This document shows positions 19,919-29,960 of a stretch of 64,000 nt of DNA, piece by piece. This DNA comes from an uncultured Prevotellaceae bacterium. GTDB lineage: Bacteria; Bacteroidota; Bacteroidia; Bacteroidales; Muribaculaceae. Position 1 is the stretch's first letter; the number at the start of each line of letters is the position of its first letter. The notes under the pieces are model-generated. The model was not told where the DNA came from. It saw only the letters and a list, made by a program, of their open reading frames with translations, and ran no database searches. Location: assembly GCA_900318335.1 (NCBI GenBank), contig ONKF01000003.1, forward strand, positions 111,259 to 175,258, written 5' to 3'. The translations under genes and the position numbers were made by a program.

Positions 19919-21049
19919 CTAAAGCCTTACCTGGACGTCATGGAGCATCTGGCGCTTCCACTCGGGGAAATCGCCGTCGATGATGTGTTTGCGGGCCTCA
20001 CCCACGAGCCACAGGTAGAAGGCCAGGTTGTGGATGCTGGCAATCTGCATGGCCAGGATTTCCTGGGCGATGAACAGGTGGCGCACATAGGCCTTGCTAT
20101 AGATGTGGTCCACAATCGAGGGACCATCTTCCTGCAAGGGAGTGAAGTCGTCGGCCCATTTCTTGTTGCGCATGTTCATGATGCCATGACGGGTGAAGAG
20201 CATGCCGTTGCGGCCGTTGCGGGTGGGCATCACACAATCCATCATATCGACACCGCGGTCGATGGCCTCAAGCATGTTGGCGGGTGTGCCGACGCCCATC
20301 AAGTATCGGGGGCGGTCCTGGGGCAAGATATCATTAACGATCTCAATCATCTCATACATGACCTCGGTGGGCTCACCCACGGCAAGGCCGCCAATAGCAT
20401 TGCCATCAGCACCCAGATCGGCGACAAACTTGGATGATTCCTGTCTCAGATCCTTATACACACAACCTTGAACAATAGGGAAATAAGCCTGGCTGTGGCC
20501 ATATCGGGGCTGGGTGTTCTTGAAATGCTTCCAGCCGCGGGCAAGCCAGTTATGGGTCAGGGTCAAAGACTTGCGGGCATAGCTATAATCGCTGGTACCG
20601 GGAGGGCACTCATCCAGCGCCATCATGATGTCACTGCCGATGCTGCGCTCGATGTCCACGACCTTCTCGGGTGTGAACAAGTGCTTGCTGCCGTCGATGT
20701 GACTGCGAAAGGTCACACCCTCATCGGTCAACTTGCGGTTATCGGCCAGGGAGAACACCTGAAAGCCACCGCTATCGGTCAAGATGGGACGGTCCCACCC
20801 ATTGAACTTGTGCAGACCACCGGCTCGCTCGATGATGTCCATGCCGGGGCGCAGGTACAGGTGATAGGTGTTACCCAGGATAATCTGGGCCTTGATGTCC
20901 TCACGCAACTCGGTCATGTGGACAGCCTTAACGGCTCCCACGGTGCCCACGGGCATGAAAATGGGGGTCTCGATTTGGCCGTGGTCGGTCGTGATGAGCC
21001 CAGCTCGCGCGTTGGTGCCACTGGGTGTGGCTATGAGTTGATAGTCCAT
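19919..21049 (-). CDS. tgt: Queuine tRNA-ribosyltransferase (Tgt), zinc cysteines absent
   Basis: 376 residues with clear bacterial Tgt motifs: GNTYHLYLRPG, LTDSGGFQVFS (catalytic Asp), GGLAVGEP and the nucleophile region RGVDMMDCVMPTRNGRNG. The enzyme exchanges G34 for preQ1 in GUN-anticodon tRNAs. Where E. coli-type enzymes have CxCxxC plus His for structural zinc, this protein reads DGPSIVDHIYSKAYVRHL (about residues 306-323), with none of the three cysteines; the later IHNL histidine is kept. It heads an operon with LptF/G, MBOAT and SGNH. The identity is firm; the zinc-site loss is seen directly. Confidence 0.96.
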   Translation of the reverse strand: MDYQLIATPSGTNARAGLITTDHGQIETPIFMPVGTVGAVKAVHMTELREDIKAQIILGNTYHLYLRPGMDIIERAGGLHKFNGWDRPILTDSGGFQVFSLADNRKLTDEGVTFRSHIDGSKHLFTPEKVVDIERSIGSDIMMALDECPPGTSDYSYARKSLTLTHNWLARGWKHFKNTQPRYGHSQAYFPIVQGCVYKDLRQESSKFVADLGADGNAIGGLAVGEPTEVMYEMIEIVNDILPQDRPRYLMGVGTPANMLEAIDRGVDMMDCVMPTRNGRNGMLFTRHGIMNMRNKKWADDFTPLQEDGPSIVDHIYSKAYVRHLFIAQEILAMQIASIHNLAFYLWLVGEARKHIIDGDFPEWKRQMLHDVQVRL

Positions 21050-21077
21050 TCAGTGTTGTCTATTCTAAAAAATCGTG

Positions 21078-21085
21078 CAAAGTTA
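21078..21085 (-). promoter_or_regulatory. -7 box for the tgt operon
   Basis: Minus-strand TAACTTTG fits TAnnTTTG, 28 nt upstream of the tgt start. Confidence 0.6.
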
Positions 21086-21179
21086 GTGATTTTTTTAGTA
21101 TTAACCGGTTTGCTGCCGCGAGTTGTTTCATTTTATGTGATGATTTCGATAATTTTAACGCATCAGTTCACAAAAAAAT

Positions 21180-21208
21180 GAGGCAAGCGTTTTCTGGGCG
21201 CTTGCCTC
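21180..21208 (-). terminator. Rho-independent terminator for the gene at 21233
   Basis: A perfect 10-bp stem (GAGGCAAGCG with its complement) followed on the minus strand by a run of seven T. Confidence 0.85.
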
Positions 21209-21232
21209 AATTATCCTGTCAGTCAATCTGTT

Positions 21233-21964
21233 CTATCTATTGTATTCCAGGAGGGCATTGCGGGCATTCTCATAGTAGAGCTGGCATTCCTCGTAATCCC
21301 TTTTTGCATTATCAACGGCCAACTGAGCTTCCATCAATTCCCTGGCATGTCTCGTCTCGAGATCTGATGTCTCTGCCTCATGTCTCTTGCGCATCTCGTC
21401 AGTGAGTCCGCCAGTGGCTTCACGTTCCTGTTTCTCGACAAGCAGCGCTTTCTCTTTCTGCTGCTTCTCAATCAGAGCCTGCAGATTTCTCTGCTCAGTC
21501 TCCATCTTGCCCTGGGCATTGTTCAGTTTCAGCCTTGCGTCCCTGCATTCAAAGCTCAACCTCTCACGTTCGCTTGTGATTTTTTCCCGCATGGCAGCTT
21601 CTTGTTGGGTGAGCGTTTTATCCTTGACAACCTCGTTATCGACTGGTACCCTTTCCACGTTTTGTTTCTGAATTGACTTGGGACCGCTCTTCTGCTGGGT
21701 AAGTGCCTTATCCTTGATGACTTCGGCCTCGGCAGGTCTTCTCACTCTGGTGTTGTCCTGAGAATACTTCGGAGCGACAGTCTGCTGGGAATTATTATTG
21801 GCCTTCTGATACTTGACGGGCCTGTTAGCGGTACTTTCGCCCTTGATGGTGCGCTGTACCTGCTGATTCTGGCGCGTGGCCTTAACCGTTTCTCTTGATT
21901 GTGCCATTGCGGCAGGAACTGCAATCATGCAGAACGTCACTGCCAATAAAAGTATCTTTTTCAT
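21233..21964 (-). CDS. Exported coiled-coil protein, function unknown
   Basis: 243 residues from the ATG at 21964, chosen because it begins a clean signal peptide (MKKILLLAVTFCMIAVPAAMA); the frame is open further upstream, but that part has no export signal. The middle contains a duplicated short motif (VIKDKALTQQKSGPKSIQKQ and VVKDKTLTQQEAAMREKI), and the C-terminal half is a long charged heptad-rich coiled coil (about residues 120-240). It shares signal-peptide style, coiled-coil nature and orientation with the next gene (22151), but each has its own terminator. Role unknown; periplasmic or envelope-scaffold is a guess. Confidence 0.7.
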   Translation of the reverse strand: MKKILLLAVTFCMIAVPAAMAQSRETVKATRQNQQVQRTIKGESTANRPVKYQKANNNSQQTVAPKYSQDNTRVRRPAEAEVIKDKALTQQKSGPKSIQKQNVERVPVDNEVVKDKTLTQQEAAMREKITSERERLSFECRDARLKLNNAQGKMETEQRNLQALIEKQQKEKALLVEKQEREATGGLTDEMRKRHEAETSDLETRHARELMEAQLAVDNAKRDYEECQLYYENARNALLEYNR

Positions 21965-22086
21965 AATAGTATATTTTAAGAGGTTGTACATTACGTTTAT
22001 AATTCTCTGTTTTCTATTATATAGACACAAAATGCCCTTATCGGTTTAACCCGTTTTTCATGAATTGAGCGGGTTTTATGACACAA

Positions 22087-22122
22087 AATGGGACTGGCAG
22101 CCAATTGATTGCCAGTCCCATT
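22087..22122 (-). terminator. Terminator for the coiled-coil gene at 22151
   Basis: A perfect 13-bp stem (AATGGGACTGGCA and its complement) around a 10-nt loop. On the minus strand it runs on into TTTTGTGTC. It is palindromic enough to work in either direction. Confidence 0.75.
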
Positions 22123-22150
22123 ATTGTGACAGTTGATTACGTCTTATTAC

Positions 22151-22759
22151 TTATTTGTACTTCTCAACGTTCTTGCGGGCCTTCTCGAGGTTCTCCTCGG
22201 CCTTCTTCAAGTTGTTCATAGCCTTCTCATAGTTCTTCTGAGCCTTGAGATTATCCTTGGCGACCTTCTCTTCAAACTTCTTCACCTTGGTATCCATCTT
22301 GATCATCTTCTCGGCATTACCTTGAGCCTTGGCTACTTCCTCGTTGAGTTTCTGACGCTCCTTGACCTGCTTCTCGGGCAGCTCATTCATCTTCTTCTGG
22401 GCTTCACTGACCTTGTTTTGAGCCTCTTTCAGCTTGTTTTGAGCCTGATTGTACTTCTCGTTTGCCTTCTGGCGGTTCTCAATCTGTTTTTGCTGCTTCT
22501 TGGCCTCTTTCTCAGCCTTTTTAGCCTCCTTTTCTTTCTTTTCAGCGGCTTTCTTGGCATCCTTAGCCTTCTTCTCCTGCTCCTTGTAAGCGTCCTTCTG
22601 CTTCTTGGCAGCCTCGGCCTGTTTCTTGGCTAACTCAGCATCCTTGGCATACTGATTCTGTTGCTGTTCAAGGTTTTGCGGAGTCTCATAATTCTGAGCC
22701 ATAGCGGCAGGTGCTGCTGCAAAGCAGAAAAGCGCTGCCATCAACAATAATTTCTTCAT
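22151..22759 (-). CDS. Exported Lys/Ala/Glu-rich coiled-coil protein
   Basis: 202 residues with a signal peptide (MKKLLLMAALFCFAAAPAAMA). Nearly all of the mature part is a continuous coiled coil of AKKA, EKK and AQNK repeats with no cysteines and few hydrophobic clusters. The composition resembles periplasmic helical-rod proteins, but no family is recognised. It has a -7 box and its own terminator, and lies next to another exported coiled-coil gene (21233). The low-complexity composition makes database assignment unreliable. Confidence 0.75.
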   Translation of the reverse strand: MKKLLLMAALFCFAAAPAAMAQNYETPQNLEQQQNQYAKDAELAKKQAEAAKKQKDAYKEQEKKAKDAKKAAEKKEKEAKKAEKEAKKQQKQIENRQKANEKYNQAQNKLKEAQNKVSEAQKKMNELPEKQVKERQKLNEEVAKAQGNAEKMIKMDTKVKKFEEKVAKDNLKAQKNYEKAMNNLKKAEENLEKARKNVEKYK

Positions 22760-22798
22760 AATCTTCTTATTTTTAAATTAAACTATGTTTCAATACCG

Positions 22799-22806
22799 CA
22801 AAGATA
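22799..22806 (-). promoter_or_regulatory. -7 box for the coiled-coil gene at 22151
   Basis: Minus-strand TATCTTTG, 40 nt upstream of the start codon. Confidence 0.65.
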
Positions 22807-22913
22807 GTGCAAGCCTAACACAATGCCAAATTTTTTTTGAGCATTGTTGAGGCACAGCCTATCTTTGAGACATTGCCAACAACAGCAATAAGACATGAAT
22901 TGGCCCAAAAAGT

Positions 22914-24044
22914 TTAAAAGAATTCAGACTTGATAGTATGCGTGACATCTAAATAAATATATTCTTTACCATCTTTTCTATGATAACCAACATCTTCAGG
23001 ATTGATATATATTGCGTACCAGCAAGAGACAGGATGACCAAAGATCGTTGCAGGCTCTAACTTATCAGGTATATCACGGCATATCTGTTTTTCCAATTTA
23101 TCTTTTTCGCTCATATCATTATTAAGTTTACATCTCACAATATCGCCAGCAGCCGAGACACACAAGTGTATGCAAATCCCTCCATTCTGAATCTTTTTCC
23201 TTATCATGGGACCCGAATGCCGATAGATATATTTGGCTAAAGCTTGCTGGTCGCCTATGCAACGTGGCATGACCTCAACTGTCTTGAAAATGCCATCTTC
23301 GTCTCTTCCATATTCCAGTAAAGGCCCGCTCTCCTTGCAGTGTATTAATGTTCCGTCACCCAATCCCAGAAAACGAGAAAAAATGGTCGTGTCGGCAACA
23401 GGATACTCAAGATAGTATTCTGGTTTATCCCAAAATGAGGATGGCAGGTAATAGGAAGCCTTTTTGCCTTTTCCCAATTCATACACGGTTGAACGCAGTG
23501 CTTTCATGTCACGCCATTGCGGCAACTCGTCGCCACTCCACGTGCAAGTGTCATGAAGCCTTGAAACAATGCACTTGTCACGGGTCTTGACATACATGTT
23601 TCGGAACACATTACCGTCGCTATGTGTCTCAATCTGCAATTCGATAATCGTGTCTTTCAGAATATACCGGTCATAAACACAAGAATCCTCGCCCGTGATA
23701 ACCACTCGATTGTACCAGCCCCAATCCTTCTTGTAGTAAGTAAGAACCTGACTCAAATAGCCCACCCTCACCACATGAACCAAGGAATCCTCATCCTTGA
23801 GCATGACTATCCCTTCGTCACAATTATCCGTAACATTAGCCAGCATAATGTCACCCCTCATTGACCACTCGTCAAAAACCAAGTAAGGTGTATAACCCTG
23901 TTCCAGATATTCAGTTACCGATGGAACATGATTAACGTCATGGGGGTGACCATTACACGACGTGACACAGATAGCTATCAGCCCCAGGCTCAATCCAGCG
24001 ATGATGGCCTTGAACTTGTCGCAAATATTTCTACAGTGTTTCAT
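22914..24044 (-). CDS. Lipoprotein with a divergent TonB-like C-terminal domain
   Basis: 376 residues from MKHCRN; an ATG three codons earlier is possible. The lipobox VTSC ends the signal peptide (about residue 30). The central ~200 residues are not recognised. The last ~110 residues follow the pattern of the neighbouring TonB C-terminal domains (VEVMPRCIGDQQALAKYI, then ICIHLCVSAAGDIVRCKL, then ATIFGHPVSCWYAIYI), although the FPGG motif and many core residues are lost. It is the fourth and most diverged member of a minus-strand cluster of TonB_C-bearing proteins, 134 nt after the tandem-domain gene at 24179. Confidence 0.65.
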   Translation of the reverse strand: MKHCRNICDKFKAIIAGLSLGLIAICVTSCNGHPHDVNHVPSVTEYLEQGYTPYLVFDEWSMRGDIMLANVTDNCDEGIVMLKDEDSLVHVVRVGYLSQVLTYYKKDWGWYNRVVITGEDSCVYDRYILKDTIIELQIETHSDGNVFRNMYVKTRDKCIVSRLHDTCTWSGDELPQWRDMKALRSTVYELGKGKKASYYLPSSFWDKPEYYLEYPVADTTIFSRFLGLGDGTLIHCKESGPLLEYGRDEDGIFKTVEVMPRCIGDQQALAKYIYRHSGPMIRKKIQNGGICIHLCVSAAGDIVRCKLNNDMSEKDKLEKQICRDIPDKLEPATIFGHPVSCWYAIYINPEDVGYHRKDGKEYIYLDVTHTIKSEFF

Positions 24045-24178
24045 GACTATCAATAATTATGGTTTTGGTCTTCTTGAAGTTTTAAAGTAACTGGTAATGT
24101 GTACAGCGACTTGACAGCATAGCCAACGATACGACTATGAGATGAACAGGTTCATATAGTTAAAAAGAAATAGATGTA

Positions 24179-25111
24179 TTATTTCAAATCAATTTGAACC
24201 GAATTCAAATATTGACTTTTTAAACCAGGGATTTTGAATCTAATCGGCAGTTTGAAAATGACTTCAACAGGCTCTCCATTGACTGTGGCAGGGATGAAAT
24301 CGGGCAATAACTTGCAGACGCGTACAGCTTCCCTATCAAGGTCTTTATCTACCGGCTCAACTACCCTCACATCATGAACTTTACCACTCCTGTCGATCCA
24401 AAAGGCCACCTCAACACGTCCCTGTATCCTCTTCTTGGCGGCTTTGGGCGGATACTTAACATTGTCCTCGAGGAACTGATTCAACGCTTCTTTCCCGCCT
24501 GGGAATTCCGCTCTCACTTCCACGTCTTTAGGCTTTTCTTGCTCCAGTATGTCCTGCAACTTGAAAGTAACGGGCAGAGTGTACCACACGTTGACAGCTT
24601 TTCCGAACATGCGCCCCGGGGCGAATCGGGGCAGGGTCTTGACCACACGAACAGCCTCAGCGTCAAGATCCTTACTCACCGAGCGGACCACTCTCACCAC
24701 GCCTACATATCCCAACGAATCTACCACAAACTTTACCACAACACGTCCTTGTATGCTATCCTTGGCAGCCTTGGGCGGATACTTTACATTCTCTTGCAAG
24801 TACTTCATTAAAGCGACCTCTCCACCAGGGAATAAAGGCATCTGCTCTACTGAATAGAAGATTTTGTCCGTGGATTCTAAGCTATCCCTGACAGCCTTGG
24901 GTGGGTATAAAACAATCGGTGAGGGTTTCACAGGTAACCGGGTCATCTGCTCAGGATCCTCAATAACTACCTCCCTATTCACTGAGTCACTGGCAAGACC
25001 ATAGGCACCATGACTTGACGCTACAGCCGAAAGGCTTGTCATCACTACGGTCAAGAGGATGGCAACCCTGATTGCCCTCATCATATCAATATTTAATCTA
25101 CCGTGTTTCAT
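24179..25111 (-). CDS. Membrane-anchored protein with two tandem TonB C-terminal domains
   Basis: 310 residues from MKHGRLN; the frame opens eight codons earlier. An N-terminal hydrophobic segment (about residues 10-30) can anchor or export it. The first TonB_C domain starts at EQMPLFPGGEVALMKYL (about residue 90) and ends in WYTLPVTFKL. The second starts at VRAEFPGGKEALNQFL and ends in FKLPIRFKI. TonB C-termini normally contact TonB-dependent receptors; two in tandem, without a proline-rich spacer, is unusual. The gene starts 43 nt after the serpin-TonB gene and is probably co-transcribed with it. Confidence 0.75.
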   Translation of the reverse strand: MKHGRLNIDMMRAIRVAILLTVVMTSLSAVASSHGAYGLASDSVNREVVIEDPEQMTRLPVKPSPIVLYPPKAVRDSLESTDKIFYSVEQMPLFPGGEVALMKYLQENVKYPPKAAKDSIQGRVVVKFVVDSLGYVGVVRVVRSVSKDLDAEAVRVVKTLPRFAPGRMFGKAVNVWYTLPVTFKLQDILEQEKPKDVEVRAEFPGGKEALNQFLEDNVKYPPKAAKKRIQGRVEVAFWIDRSGKVHDVRVVEPVDKDLDREAVRVCKLLPDFIPATVNGEPVEVIFKLPIRFKIPGLKSQYLNSVQIDLK

Positions 25112-25154
25112 AATCACTAAAACACATAAAAACATATTAATTTACGAACTATCA

Positions 25155-26855
25155 TCAGCGATTGACAATCATTCGCCCTTTTTCCGGCAACTTGAACGTG
25201 ACGGGCAAGGTGTACCACACTGCAACAGCCTGACCATTCTGGCGAGCAGGGGTGAACTTAGGTAGTGACTTAACAATGCGAACAGCCTCCTTGTCAAGGT
25301 CCTTGGCCACCGAGCGAACCACCTTGACTTCACCGACATTACCGGTCTTGTCAACAACAAACTGCACAACCACACGGCCTTGAATATTGTTATTCTTAGC
25401 TTCGGGAGGATACTGGATGTGACTGTCTAAATACTTCACCAATGCAGCCTCGCCACCAGGGAATAAAGGCATCTGCTCAACACTACTGTAGATTTCATTC
25501 GAGGAATTATCGTTGCGACCTTGGATTTCAACTTGTTTTCCCTCTTCGCCGCAATAGGTGCCCATGAAGTAGATCGTGCCGGTGCTATTCTCTATGATGA
25601 AATATACAAATGGACGCGTTGCGTGGAACTCCACGTATTCACGATGACTGGGCATGGCAGATTTTTCACTCATTTCTACCACCGTGACGGCAGCGGCCTT
25701 GGTGCCTTCTTCGTTGATCTCGATTTTAGCCTTCTGCTTCATCATCGACACATACAGGTCGTCGCTATGTCCCTGGACCATATTGGGGAACTCTGCAAGA
25801 TTGCCGAATGCCCGCGGCATGCCCATCGACGAGAGTGCCTTCTCAAGATATGTCTCGCTTACGGTAGTGAAGCGAGGCATCAGGATATCGACTTCAGTCG
25901 ACCTCATCTGTTGCAGTTGCACCTCCATGCTTTTTGCCGAGAGGCTCTTGATGATGTCACCGATAGCCTTGCCCTCGTTGGGAAGCATCACAACCATACT
26001 GTAGCCGCCATTGCCGTAGTGCAGACGCAGCATTTTGCACAGATCGTTCTTGCCATAGGCCGCCTTTGTTTTGAGATGCATCATAGGGAGCTTGACGGTT
26101 GTGCCATCCAGTTTTGTGAAGTGCCTGTCACGGGTTTCATTGGGGTCAAATTTTTCGGTCCAAGAAGCCTTGAAATAGACAGCATTCAATAGATACATCA
26201 CGCGGTTGGAATTAAGTTCATCTTTTTTCAGGAGTTCTTGTATCATGCCGTCAGTGTTTTTCTTGCACCAATTGTTGATTTTCTCCACAATGCTTGCTCC
26301 GCTGTAATCGACCGCATCGGCCAGGGCGTTGTAATAGTTTTGCATGTCGACCTTGTACTGCGGGATGAGGCTATAGCCCGAGACGACGAAGATGCTGTTG
26401 GCGGTTTTCACCGTCACTGTCGGGTCAACATTAGGAGCTTGATCCATTATCTTTTTAAAATACTCGTTGATTTCCTTTACCGACCAGCCCAGTCCAAGTA
26501 CGTGATTAATCTGCCTGCGTGTCTCGCCGTCAGCTCCCTCGTGGAGCATTCCCAGCAGGAAGCCCACACTGATGGGCGACACAATGGTGCTCTTACCTCT
26601 ACCTTTCTTCTCGTAGATGGCGCGGAACAGATTGCAGGCAAAATCATTGTTGTTATCCAGCGTCCCGTCTGGGGATGCAGTTATCGTGTCGTCGATAGGT
26701 GTCACGTCTTGAGATGCGATAGAAGTGTCGTCATTCTTCTCAACCATGTCACTACTATTAAAAGGGTTGCTATCGCTGGCGAATATCAAGATGCCTGTCA
26801 CCAATGCCACGATGCACAATGTGCTAAATATCCATAATCGTTTCATATCGGTCAA
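25155..26855 (-). CDS. Serpin fused to a TonB-type C-terminal domain
   Basis: 566 residues. An N-terminal membrane anchor (about residues 4-27) is followed by a polar linker, then a full serpin domain (about 70-445) starting at NDFACNLFRAIY with STIVSPISV, and a reactive-centre hinge EEGTKAAAVTVVEM near residues 385-400; counting from the hinge puts P1 near the Lys-Ser of SEKSAM. The small hinge residues suggest an inhibitory serpin. After FMGTYCGEEG the chain continues into a TonB_C domain (about 458-560, EQMPLFPGGEAALVKYL to WYTLPVTFKL). No frameshift or stop separates the parts, so the fusion is real in this assembly. An internal ATG three codons in is an alternative start. Confidence 0.88.
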   Translation of the reverse strand: MTDMKRLWIFSTLCIVALVTGILIFASDSNPFNSSDMVEKNDDTSIASQDVTPIDDTITASPDGTLDNNNDFACNLFRAIYEKKGRGKSTIVSPISVGFLLGMLHEGADGETRRQINHVLGLGWSVKEINEYFKKIMDQAPNVDPTVTVKTANSIFVVSGYSLIPQYKVDMQNYYNALADAVDYSGASIVEKINNWCKKNTDGMIQELLKKDELNSNRVMYLLNAVYFKASWTEKFDPNETRDRHFTKLDGTTVKLPMMHLKTKAAYGKNDLCKMLRLHYGNGGYSMVVMLPNEGKAIGDIIKSLSAKSMEVQLQQMRSTEVDILMPRFTTVSETYLEKALSSMGMPRAFGNLAEFPNMVQGHSDDLYVSMMKQKAKIEINEEGTKAAAVTVVEMSEKSAMPSHREYVEFHATRPFVYFIIENSTGTIYFMGTYCGEEGKQVEIQGRNDNSSNEIYSSVEQMPLFPGGEAALVKYLDSHIQYPPEAKNNNIQGRVVVQFVVDKTGNVGEVKVVRSVAKDLDKEAVRIVKSLPKFTPARQNGQAVAVWYTLPVTFKLPEKGRMIVNR

Positions 26856-26893
26856 TTTTTTCAGGTTGATAAAAGCGGGTTAACTCTCGCTTG

Positions 26894-26901
26894 CAAAGTT
26901 A
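26894..26901 (-). promoter_or_regulatory. -7 box for the serpin-TonB operon
   Basis: Minus-strand TAACTTTG, 39 nt upstream of the serpin start. The rest of 26856-27089 is AT-rich and has no gene. Confidence 0.6.
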
Positions 26902-27089
26902 CAGCCGATTATTGAAAAAACGCCAAAAACGGCCAACATTCGATGGTCATTTCTTGGGATATTTATCATTGATTTTCAACAAGTTACAAAACAAAAAGGT
27001 CATTTGGAGGTAATTCAGCGATTTGGACAAGAATTACCGCCCTTAAAATGGGTGATTTTGGGGAAATGATTCAACAAAAAAAGCCGTTT

Positions 27090-27968
27090 TTACTCTGTCT
27101 GACCAATCAATGGGAAAAGAATTTTCCGGAATTCAGCGCCAGCTGCGGTAAAGGTAGAAATGTCATAGTAGTTCCCACGGTAATATAATGCCGACTTGTC
27201 ATAATAAGCCACCCTCTTATTGCCCTCCTTAATATAAATGGTAATCTTGCCCCGCGTGTCAAGTTGGCCCTGGGATAGTTTCGCCAAGCCTCCCATCGCA
27301 TTGATCATCTCTTTGATTTTCCATTTTCGCTTGACTAAAACCGTCTCCCTCGAGTCACTGAACTGCCCCGCGTCAAAAATGGCCGGAGTGATGTCCATGG
27401 GGGCATGAAGTTCCAGATTGCAGTAGTCGATTCTGATAGAGTCAACGTCATGGATGAAAGACAACAGATAGGAAATGTCGTTGTTTAGCTTAAAAGTCAC
27501 TGGGAGCGTGTACCACACATTGACAGGTTTGCCTTGCAGGGTCCCAGGTACGAATTTGGGGAGTGCACCGATGACCCGAACAGCCTCGCGGTCGAGGTCG
27601 GGATCAGCCGAGCGGACGACCCTCATCTCCCCCACTTGGCCTGTCGAGTCCACAACAAACTGAACAACGACCTTACCTTGTTTATTCCTTTCGGCCGCTT
27701 CAGGTGGATAAGAGATGTTATCGCGAATGAAGGTCATCAAAGCAGCATCACCACCAGGAAAACTGGGCATCTTATCGACAGCATTAAACACCTCCTCGCC
27801 ATTATCTGACACTGCGATGCGCACATCGCCAACACTGCCGTTACCAGAAGCCGAAATCGTAAGACTTGCCACCACAAGGCCCATGGCAAGAAAGAGCCCT
27901 GCGAGAAAACGCTTGCGGTGAGCGCCAAGCCATCGGTCGATAGAGTGTTTGTCTTGCTTCATATCCAT
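27090..27968 (-). CDS. Membrane-anchored protein with central TonB_C domain and extra C-terminal domain
   Basis: 292 residues from the ATG at 27968; upstream in-frame ATG codons would overlap the -7 box. A basic N-terminus and one hydrophobic segment (about residues 20-42) anchor it. The TonB_C domain runs from DKMPSFPGGDAALMTFI (about residue 60) to WYTLPVTFKL. A further ~120 residues (WKIKEMINAMGGLAKLSQG...) follow that I do not recognise. The nucleotide sequence of the TonB_C part is close to that of 24179 and 25155, pointing to local duplication. It has its own promoter, separate from the serpin operon. Confidence 0.75.
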   Translation of the reverse strand: MDMKQDKHSIDRWLGAHRKRFLAGLFLAMGLVVASLTISASGNGSVGDVRIAVSDNGEEVFNAVDKMPSFPGGDAALMTFIRDNISYPPEAAERNKQGKVVVQFVVDSTGQVGEMRVVRSADPDLDREAVRVIGALPKFVPGTLQGKPVNVWYTLPVTFKLNNDISYLLSFIHDVDSIRIDYCNLELHAPMDITPAIFDAGQFSDSRETVLVKRKWKIKEMINAMGGLAKLSQGQLDTRGKITIYIKEGNKRVAYYDKSALYYRGNYYDISTFTAAGAEFRKILFPLIGQTE

Positions 27969-27995
27969 TATCAATTTGGGTCCTACTGATGCTCG

Positions 27996-28003
27996 CAAAG
28001 TTA
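27996..28003 (-). promoter_or_regulatory. -7 box for the gene at 27090-27968
   Basis: Minus-strand TAACTTTG. Its position rules out the first in-frame ATG (28010) and favours starts at 27968 or 27962. Confidence 0.6.
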
Positions 28004-28155
28004 CAATCAATCCTGAAAAAACGCAAATAAAACCACAACAATATCGAGGCTTGACAGAAAAAGGTCAAACTTGATTTTCAATGGTTTATAAAAGAAAAAC
28101 ACCTACTGTGGGAAATTTGCCGAATCGGGGCAACCATTAACTACAAAAAAATACG

Positions 28156-28163
28156 TATTTTTG
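28156..28163 (+). promoter_or_regulatory. -7 box for the TPR regulator
   Basis: TATTTTTG fits TAnnTTTG and lies 63 nt before the ATG at 28227. It shows that the open frame starting at 28161 is not the translated start. Confidence 0.6.
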
Positions 28164-28226
28164 CAGGATATAAACCACGCAATGACGCGAAATAGCCAAG
28201 TTGTTATAGAATTAACCTGCTTCCTT

Positions 28227-29960
28227 ATGAACCTAAGATTCAGATATACCCATGTCAGCTATCTGGTGATGGTAATTGTTGGAGCACTCATCGTGACCAG
28301 TGGCTGCAGCCGCCACAGCGAGCCAAATAATGCGGAGTTGATTGCTATCGACTCGCTGCTGTGCCAGAACCGCAGTTTCCAAGCCAGTGAGATGCTCCGC
28401 GGCATCAATACCGAGTACCTCAATGACGAGGACAAGATTTATCATGCTTTGCTATCCACCCAAGCCAATGTCGAGAATCAGACGCCCATTGTTGATGACG
28501 ACACCATCAAGATGGCAGTGAAGCATTATCAGGCCCACGGCGACAAGGAGAAATATGCCCGCGCCCTACTCTATCAGGGATGTGTCGACAAGCAGCTGGG
28601 CCACCTTGACAAAGCCATCGCCTGCTTGCGCCAAGCCGAGGACATGGCTGGTAACGATGACCTGAAAATACGCGCCTTGTCCAAGATGTGGATGGGCGAA
28701 TTGTACCAGAGCCAGGTCGTGGGCGCCAAGACCGTGGGGGCCGAGAAATACCGCGAGGCCCTGGAACTGTTCCGACAAATAGATGACAAGCACCACCAGA
28801 TTATCTGCCTGAGCGAACTGGGCGGCCTGTACCGCATCAACCCCGAGAAACAGGATAGCGCCATGCACTATATCAATGCAGCCATCGATATGGCCAAGGA
28901 GGAAATCGAGCCAAAGTATGTTGTGGCCAACCTCTTCAGCCGCGCCGAATTCCGTGCTGCCCGTGGTGACTACAAGGGCGCCAAGGACGATGCAGTGGAT
29001 GCTATCGACTGGAGTGGAGACCTCAAGATCCACCCCCGTATCCATTACACTGCCGCATCTGCCTATCTGCACCTGGGCCGCCCCGACTCGGCCCTATTCT
29101 ACTTGAATCAAGCCCCAGCTATGACCACCGTTGCCGACAGCATCATGCACTACCAGCTGCTGGCCGACATGGCCCGCCGTGACCACCATCTGGAAGAGGC
29201 AATCAAGTATCTGACCCTGACCCATCATCTGGCCGACTCGGTAACGATGAGCAGCATGAACGACAAGCTGATGGAGGTAGAGAAGAAATATGACACCCAA
29301 AAGGTTGACCTCGAGAACGCGCTGTTGAGTTCGCGCCTCAAGGGGACGCTGCTGGCACTGACGCTGTTAGCCCTGGCGGCTGGCGCGCTTGCCTTCCTGC
29401 TGTGGCGCTACCGCAACAGGCTGAAAATCCAGCAGGCGGAATATGAATTGATGAAGTCTGACCTGGACCAGTCCATTTCAAGCCTGCAACAGATGCAAAC
29501 CATGCTCAACGACCGGGAGTCATCAAAGCAACAGTCCAGCGAACTGAAGACCATTGTGGATAATCAGATTCAAGTCGTACACCAACTGCTGCAATGGTCA
29601 TACGAGTGTAACGAGACGACCTTTGCCAAGCGCTTTAACAAGTTGATGACGATGCGCGGCCCCAACGAGGTGGGTTCGTCCTACTGGGATAACCTGCACG
29701 CACTGGCCAACGAACTGTATGACAATGTACTGGTCAAGGCACAAGAGACAGCAGGCGGCACGTTGCGTGACGACGAGATCAACTTGATCGCACTATTGTG
29801 CCACGGATTCTCCCGCACGGTAATCATGATGTGCATGCACTACACCAACCTGAGGACCGTGTCGAACAAAAAGATACAGATTGCCCATAAACTCAATGTC
29901 GCCACCCTCGACGAGTTCCTGCAACCCTACCTGAAGAGAAGGACCGATGTAACGGAGTGA
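28227..29960 (+). CDS. TPR-repeat membrane protein with C-terminal HTH-like segment
   Basis: 577 residues from MNLRFRY, chosen because it begins a lipoprotein signal (core YLVMVIVGALIVTSGC, lipobox TSGC). Residues about 35-380 are helical TPR-type repeats. A transmembrane helix (LLALTLLALAAGALAFLLW) is at about 395-413, then a coiled coil, then a C-terminal segment (INLIALLCHGFSRTVIMM...TVSNKKIQIAHKL) that fits the degenerate LuxR-like HTH seen in Bacteroidetes TPR-TM regulators. Such proteins are thought to sense at the envelope and act in the cytoplasm; a combined lipobox and TM helix is topologically odd and may mean that the signal is only an anchor. Confidence 0.65.
   Translation: MNLRFRYTHVSYLVMVIVGALIVTSGCSRHSEPNNAELIAIDSLLCQNRSFQASEMLRGINTEYLNDEDKIYHALLSTQANVENQTPIVDDDTIKMAVKHYQAHGDKEKYARALLYQGCVDKQLGHLDKAIACLRQAEDMAGNDDLKIRALSKMWMGELYQSQVVGAKTVGAEKYREALELFRQIDDKHHQIICLSELGGLYRINPEKQDSAMHYINAAIDMAKEEIEPKYVVANLFSRAEFRAARGDYKGAKDDAVDAIDWSGDLKIHPRIHYTAASAYLHLGRPDSALFYLNQAPAMTTVADSIMHYQLLADMARRDHHLEEAIKYLTLTHHLADSVTMSSMNDKLMEVEKKYDTQKVDLENALLSSRLKGTLLALTLLALAAGALAFLLWRYRNRLKIQQAEYELMKSDLDQSISSLQQMQTMLNDRESSKQQSSELKTIVDNQIQVVHQLLQWSYECNETTFAKRFNKLMTMRGPNEVGSSYWDNLHALANELYDNVLVKAQETAGGTLRDDEINLIALLCHGFSRTVIMMCMHYTNLRTVSNKKIQIAHKLNVATLDEFLQPYLKRRTDVTE

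Follow-up and report, generated by a model that had tools for sequence, protein, structure and literature searches.

A serpin joined to a TonB C-terminal domain recurs within one genus of the Bacteroidales and may act as a tethered protease inhibitor of the periplasm

Introduction

What most bacterial serpins act on in nature is not known. Miropin, the serpin of Tannerella forsythia, comes from another member of the Bacteroidales. Inhibition by miropin has been reported for gingipain K and a calpain-like peptidase as well as for serine proteases (PMC8201313), and it has been called likely that it prevents damage from secreted serine proteases (PMC4404884). The energy transducer TonB has been studied well, and a protease inhibitor is not where its C-terminal domain (TonB_C) would be expected; the motor-binding helix of the classical protein is described as carrying a SHLS motif (PMC12204202). 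Searches of the open-licence literature listed no paper whose title or abstract opening describes a fusion of a serpin with TonB.

The window analysed here is a stretch of 64,000 nucleotides from the genome of an uncultured Prevotellaceae bacterium (GCA_900318335.1, contig ONKF01000003.1), in which an initial annotation had recognised a serpin and a TonB_C domain within one membrane-anchored protein. That first reading is partly supported, and the observation at its core is stronger than first stated, in that the fusion is a real, genus-level family.

Results

It is clear that one continuous frame joins the two domains, as had been claimed: the longest frame (25155-26855, minus strand) runs uninterrupted for 566 codons from a TTG at 26855 and would give 566 aa. 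Translation probably begins three codons further in, with the in-frame ATG of position 26846, because M-K-R-x-W is found there in most orthologues; counted from this probable start the fusion protein has 563 aa. A scan for promoters and terminators around the gene returned nothing decisive. The gene and its protein are laid out as follows.

25155..26846, minus strand: serpin-TonB_C fusion gene, an open frame with the MKR start common to orthologues
26778..26846, minus strand: putative signal peptide MKRLWIFSTLCIVALVTGILIFA, without a lipobox cysteine, assigned by eye against orthologues, with a putative cleavage site
26673..26777, minus strand: flexible linker from signal peptide to serpin (residues 24-58 with pLDDT below 50)
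25551..26654, minus strand: serpin domain (PF00079), best PDB sequence match miropin
25677..25712, minus strand: inhibitory-type hinge EEGTKAAAVTVV of the reactive-centre loop, read from the sequence and aligning with EEGTEAAAVTAV of miropin
25659..25664, minus strand: predicted scissile bond between P1 Lys395 and P1' Ser396 (Met=1), with the hinge Gly counted as P15
25485..25544, minus strand: variable linker from serpin to TonB_C (median identity among orthologues 0.18; residues 440-448 with pLDDT below 50)
25188..25484, minus strand: TonB_C domain with its SVEQMPLFPGG prefix, a near copy of that of the housekeeping TonB of the genus

Both domain profiles named in the initial annotation match. 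The serpin profile PF00079 is covered almost whole (residues 68-435, E 1.7e-99, profile positions 2-368 of 370) and PF03544 is matched at residues 479-556 (25188-25421, E 2e-24, profile positions 2-79 of 79); the hinge EEGTKAAAVTVV of a complete serpin and the MPLFPGG prefix of the TonB_C domain are both present as that annotation had them. The fusion also scores above the family cut-off of NCBIfam TIGR01352 (tonB_Cterm), and its C-terminal domain matches the TonB chains 5lw8 (1.7e-5), 6sly (2.3e-5) and 6i97 (1.2e-4) in the PDB, where the serpin finds its best sequence match in miropin (5ncs, E 7.9e-68). Structure prediction for the whole chain, built on an alignment of 72 sequences, gives a helix at residues 3-21 and two well-folded domains with flexible linkers between them (mean pLDDT 85.4). 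The first of these domains has the serpin fold and looks loop-inserted, and the closest structural match of the model is a cleaved serpin, a comparison that is uninformative for the TonB_C part.

The N-terminus bears out the proposed anchor only in part. A hydrophobic start is indeed present, but by eye and by comparison with orthologues it looks more like a cleavable signal peptide than an anchor. Proteins of the fused group begin in the manner of MKRFWKFGAMVAVVLMSSFLSFA-KDSAPT and look there like signal peptides that would be cleaved, and by-eye comparison finds orthologue starts such as ...LLSFA-KDSAPT; the window protein shows a less obvious cleavage site than its orthologues do, while a TonB start is clearly absent. 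An uncleaved N-terminal anchor may exist, but the membrane-anchored reading is not favoured. Nor does the window protein have the lipobox of Bacteroidales lipoprotein serpins. After rows cut at the 5' end or beginning late in the domain had been dropped, a lipobox was found by the stricter count in 19 of 22 serpins without TonB_C from other families and in 18 of 19 from other genera of the family (the exception, L080, has LTAC and is caught by a looser lipobox rule), and in 9 of 17 from the source genus. Seven of the eight unfused serpins of the genus without a lipobox belong to the clade of fused serpins described below, and the eighth, the second copy of L031, was too short for the tree. Two of 29 fused proteins match the lipobox rule, credibly in L041 and not so by eye in L024, where the match is MNCFL within the hydrophobic stretch. 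Most likely the ancestral serpin had an N-terminal lipid anchor that was lost, while a copy of the TonB_C domain of the cell's own housekeeping TonB was added at the C-terminus.

The same N-terminus bears on the suggestion that the fusion is an energised TonB with the serpin in place of the spacer, and that capture of a protease would thereby alter the force or signal passed to a receptor. A hydrophobic N-terminus, a folded middle domain and a terminal TonB_C would suit such a protein, and a few orthologues (e.g. L049 and L027) have a hydrophobic start with no obvious cleavage site. The canonical TonB of the genus, however, has a conserved start of about 40 residues followed, by eye, by a transmembrane helix and a Glu/Lys/Pro-rich spacer (one example, L093, has 289 aa and adjoins a gene that reads by eye like exbD). 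In the window protein the conserved start and the transmembrane helix are absent, the hydrophobic stretch lacks histidine, and the serpin with its short linkers stands where the long charged, proline-rich spacer would be; nothing visible in the fusion could therefore relay to a receptor a force or a fold change that starts at the inner membrane. Two exbD matches were found in the genome, both on contigs other than that of the fusion (C67 and C11). An energised role for the fusion is thus highly unlikely.

The serpin itself is, from its sequence, apparently of the inhibitory type. Its hinge reads E-E-G-T-K-A-A-A-V, with Gly at P15, Thr at P14 and small residues over P12-P9, of which P9 is Val as in miropin, a residue that does not keep miropin from being an inhibitor (PMC8201313). 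Of the 27 fused loops listed, 26 have both Gly at P15 and Thr at P14, the exception being L059 with Glu at P15; the loop of L041 was missed by the extraction pattern. The reactive loop is nevertheless the least conserved 14-residue stretch of the serpin, all ten of the lowest of 358 serpin windows overlapping it. Its pN/pS is 0.82, and the two parts of the core have 0.38 and 0.29, although ratios below 1 in the loop are no proof of positive selection, and these values, like those for the other segments given below, are uncorrected averages over pairs of 27 sequences, some of them closely related. When P1 is assigned by counting the hinge glycine as P15, the 27 fused loops have Lys (13), Ile (4), Asp (4), Leu (2) and one each of Phe, Ser, Arg and Glu. 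The two fusions of the source genome differ here as well, the window protein having Lys (Lys-Ser) and the copy on contig C51 Ile. Such diversity fits a loop that tracks changing protease targets.

The fused TonB_C domain resembles that of the housekeeping TonB closely, with 86% identity over 100 columns between the window protein and the TonB of genome G248. A tree of 73 TonB_C domains places 27 of the 28 fused ones together with 22 canonical TonBs and separates them from 21 other modules, at a fork that has support of 93/76, is not starred and comes from 102 columns of poor resolution; the TonB group also contains two more rows, which are pieces of fusions. The 22 canonical TonBs have 56 positions with an invariance of at least 95%, of which the window protein keeps 51, and for this reason the other suggestion of the initial annotation, that TonB_C acts as a targeting module, fits best. 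The 28 fused domains caught by the extraction pattern keep on average 0.88 of the 56 positions; in the YP motif, Y is kept at 0.86 and P at 1.00, and in the last strand, V-W-Y-T-L-P, T is kept at 0.64 and the other residues at 0.93-1.00. Some fused proteins have WP for YP and are without two residues that adjoin the likely TonB-box groove. By homology with TonB, the fused domain would bind the TonB boxes of receptors.

How the resemblance has been maintained was considered from the DNA. Ongoing gene conversion with the cell's own TonB was rejected, the own TonB being at best 74-79% identical in DNA to the fused domain and foreign ones 75-80% in six genomes, with a tie between own and foreign TonB in G248. 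Since the fused domains are no closer to the TonB of their own cell than to others, the fused TonB_C looks like an older copy whose similarity has been kept by selection and not refreshed by conversion. Exchange of TonB_C among fused genes is seen in their silent differences: the C51 copy and L057:8001 share an identical main serpin core (pS 0.00) and differ in TonB_C (pS 0.20), and L053 and L058 show the reverse, with pS of 0.01 in TonB_C and 0.32 in the core. These swaps, together with five serpins without TonB_C inside the fused clade, would be expected if TonB_C were a short-lived passenger kept by recombination among many TonB_C copies and without a function of its own. Against a mere passenger, pN/pS is 0.29 in TonB_C and 0.80 in the adjoining linker, a value that marks the domain as constrained, and the fusion appears to have arisen independently at least twice; we regard this explanation as very improbable.

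A search of named genome contigs found 21 related loci in 18 genomes, and the survey proposed in the initial annotation, for the same domain order, was borne out by a continuous serpin-TonB_C frame in 18 of the 21, from 15 distinct genomes, one of these (L047) having only part of TonB_C in frame. Of the other three, L063 is at a contig edge, L064 has a serpin that lacks TonB_C, and in L066 TonB_C is encoded by a second, overlapping frame. The source genome (G000) has a second fusion of 553 aa on contig C51, and a serpin without TonB_C on contig C36. An assembly join of two genes, which would have undone the observation, is excluded by the recurrence at the 18 named loci and by the second copy in the same genome. 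Several named loci duplicate other sampled genomes (TonB_C DNA is 100% identical in L050 and G020, and in L061 and G261), and the sets are accordingly not additive; the named loci are labelled as the source genus in the trees, an assignment demonstrated only where an identical twin exists there, and their record titles give Muribaculaceae, Prevotellaceae or Bacteroidales.

With a 24-protein alignment as the query, the matches listed include full-length fusions at 9 loci, in 7 of the 26 genomes sampled from the same genus, and none in the 221 genomes from the family's other genera. Among the matches listed for the order sample, the source genome is the only one of 247 with the fusion, and none of 243 from other families has it; in the phylum sample, with E up to 1e-60, it is again the only one of 198, with none in the other 197. 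Mostly at most 5 candidates were scored per genome, and 7 in the phylum sample at its threshold of 1e-60; a full-length fusion would be expected to rank at the top of such searches. Serpins without TonB_C are common in the order. Among plasmids, 125 records match, none with one place covering 80% of the query. As far as sampled, then, the full-length fusion is confined to one genus. In the phylum sample a serpin match at G651:C81:49463-50656, itself without TonB_C, lies within a frame of 719 aa and is possibly another fusion.

A tree of 88 serpin domains unites 28 of its 29 fused rows in a single clade (support 99/94). This clade also holds seven rows scored as unfused, of which one is at a contig edge and one is the split L066; the other five (L030, L036, L048, L051 and L077) are serpins without TonB_C, and TonB_C can therefore be dispensed with at times. 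The 29th fused row, L041 from genome G010, stands far from the main clade and has as its sister (100/100) a serpin that lacks TonB_C, and a single clade for all fusions was rejected (AU p 0.0001) in a test of 49 rows in which the contig-edge L028 and the split L066 were counted as fused and L043 was left out, the one-clade grouping having been named only after the first tree was seen. Because of the position of L041 and the rejection of a single clade, fusions probably arose at least twice, with some losses. The independent fusion at L041:1306-2958 has a lipobox (LGSC) and could be tethered at both ends.

The origin of the samples bears on where such a protein might act. It could be a surface or secreted serpin directed against host, protozoan or competitor proteases, with TonB_C as an export aid or passenger, and the loop diversity would suit changing external targets. 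Characterised bacterial serpins are reported to act on host proteases (PMC8201313, PMC8233489), and abundant serpins reported from the bovine abomasal microbiota have been ascribed to host proteases (PMC3170331). The fused line, however, has no lipobox, which would put the protein at the surface. TonB_C is, to our knowledge, periplasm-facing in every known case. Pancreatic proteases are not released in the reticulum or omasum, and water-buffalo reticulum and goat omasum are among the sources given in some record titles, along with roe-deer abomasum and sheep. Taken together, these points make an external role unlikely.

The gene neighbourhood adds further TonB_C proteins, two of which flank the fusion directly.

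24179..25135, minus strand: neighbour of 318 aa with two TonB_C domains (E 4.4e-41, 2 stretches) and a hydrophobic, signal-like start
27090..28010, minus strand: neighbour of 306 aa with TonB_C (E 3.2e-22) and a C-terminal part without a Pfam match

The first of these is without the membrane part of a TonB, and the frame at 22914-24053 has a weak TonB_C-like match (phmmer 1e-4) and none in Pfam. The order of TonB_C protein, fusion and TonB_C protein recurs in L047, L053 and L058. Where the window has a TPR gene (28161-29960), L046, L047, L050 and L053 have a divergent gene of 571-575 aa, with a radical-SAM gene downstream that was identified by Pfam in L046 and has the same start in L047, L050 and L053. 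Other fusions are located elsewhere, two per locus in L049, L052, L054 and L057. In L046:9995-10669 and L050:4598-5875 the TonB_C proteins beside the fusion begin with a cysteine-rich stretch (CHHEGDCSGTCPACESE in L046), followed, with no signal peptide by eye, by a hydrophobic stretch and then TonB_C; a shorter paralogue of 135 aa without a Pfam match stands at L046:10685-11092, and the radical-SAM gene comes after it. At 21000-28500 of the window, over the group of TonB_C genes, G+C is about 0.41-0.50, lower than the values of about 0.50-0.57 on both sides.

The presence of several exported TonB_C proteins here means that receptor binding may not be the role of TonB_C. TonB C-termini contact peptidoglycan, and TonB_C could be a general module for retention in the envelope, by contact with peptidoglycan or protein or by dimerisation, unrelated to transporters, with the serpin a plain periplasmic inhibitor. 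The exported-looking proteins that flank the fusion would fit this, as would a TonB_C joined to a carboxypeptidase-regulatory-like domain at a related locus, a TonB_C on a BlaR1/M56-type protein of the source genome (contig C42) and the free variation of the linkers. The fused domains are, however, much nearer to the housekeeping TonB than the other modules are, and they keep YP and most of the last strand, as expected under selection for contact with the TonB box, which leaves general retention a possible though somewhat unlikely explanation.

Candidate targets were sought among the C10 cysteine peptidases, for which the source genome has 24 Peptidase_C10 matches. The inhibition reported for miropin, of gingipain K and a calpain-like peptidase (PMC8201313), makes action of a serpin across protease classes plausible. 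Serpin numbers in 37 genomes of the genus are correlated with those of C10 peptidases (Spearman 0.75, p 9e-8), whereas S8 subtilases give 0.36 (p 0.03) with serpins and 0.68 with C10; the partial correlation of serpins with C10, given S8 number, genome size and completeness, is 0.73. These counts are of matches, and S8 matches often split one gene; serpin fragments were merged to one gene each in G024 and G031, and a fragment in G034 was kept as one. With phylogenetic contrasts computed for 25 genomes placed on an RpoB tree (7 of the 37 having been dropped beforehand for completeness <=80 or an ambiguous fragment, and 5 of the remaining 30 having no RpoB match), r is 0.50 for C10 (p 0.011) and 0.23 for S8 (p 0.26). 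One clade contributes much of the C10 correlation, and only 2 pairs were available to a test of the link by independent pairs. The signal thus survives correction for kinship in part, leaning on one clade; against it, four of the genus's genomes are without a serpin although they have 15-17 C10 matches. The cell's own C10 cysteine peptidases are perhaps the target, as far as the correlation goes.

The number of C10 matches in the 37 genomes ranges from 2 to 33 per genome, and on contig C59 of the source genome five lie within about 20 kb (about 24.9-44.2 kb), and a stand-alone TonB_C protein of 148 aa with a signal-like start lies in their midst (L016:4537-4983, L016 being C59 29000-39000). 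The neighbourhood of C10 genes was rejected as evidence on targets, since such genes occur in the sampled flanks of only 4 of the 21 named loci, which is close to the chance level for 24 per genome (a hand estimate gives about 2.3 genes). Three C10 genes beside fusions have, by Pfam, a Spi-type propeptide inhibitor (I69) and a dockerin-like tail.

Discussion

The fusion looks like a real and probably useful invention, since the same join is found in close relatives. We tentatively favour the reading that it is a suicide protease inhibitor of the periplasm, tethered through TonB_C without being energised, and guarding transporters and the periplasm. The signal peptide would export the protein to the periplasm, where TonB_C, from its homology and conservation, may dock by beta-strand addition on the TonB boxes of TonB-dependent transporters, with no coupling of energy. 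The serpin would offer its fast-evolving bait loop to a protease, and the loop, once cut, would insert into the serpin beta-sheet and trap the protease, in keeping with the general serpin mechanism, the hinge and the loop-inserted look of the model. Transporters and periplasm might in this way be guarded, most plausibly, on the basis of the correlation, against the cell's own C10 cysteine peptidases as they cross the envelope. Location, docking partner, target and inhibition are thus all putative. A related and quite improbable idea is that a motor-less decoy TonB brakes nutrient import: the change of the serpin from stressed to relaxed, with the bulky load of a captured protease, would alter occupancy of the TonB boxes and so protect or shut the transporters.

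One genus has apparently joined a serpin to TonB_C at least twice, in a fused line that lacks the lipid anchor and varies its bait loop. If TonB_C docks the inhibitor at transporters, as in the tethered-inhibitor reading, then a TonB domain can be put to a second use, as an address tag within the envelope, and bacteria possess a protease guard tethered to transporters. The purpose of a bacterial serpin also becomes testable in this system, with its paralogues that differ in P1 and a genome with 24 candidate C10 targets.

The fusion shares the serpin fold and the hinge with the miropin of T. forsythia, but the PDB chain of miropin (375 residues) is a serpin only, whereas the fusion has no lipobox and carries TonB_C after the serpin. 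In a published serpin phylogeny (PMC8233489) miropin belongs to group T. With the housekeeping TonB of the genus it shares the C-terminal domain, at up to 86% identity, and the lead-in S-V-E-Q-M-P-x-F-P-G-G, but the conserved start, transmembrane helix and charged spacer of that protein are all missing. BlaR1/M56-TonB_C proteins and other exported proteins with a TonB_C tail likewise have TonB_C as the last domain of an unrelated protein, the front part being a membrane peptidase or sensor or a short unknown stretch, and not a serpin. TonB_C is also reused outside TonB in MxcH-type receptors (NF038079, matched by the fusion in its TonB_C part only and far under the cut-off), where it stands ahead of an outer-membrane receptor, whereas in the fusion it follows a protease inhibitor.
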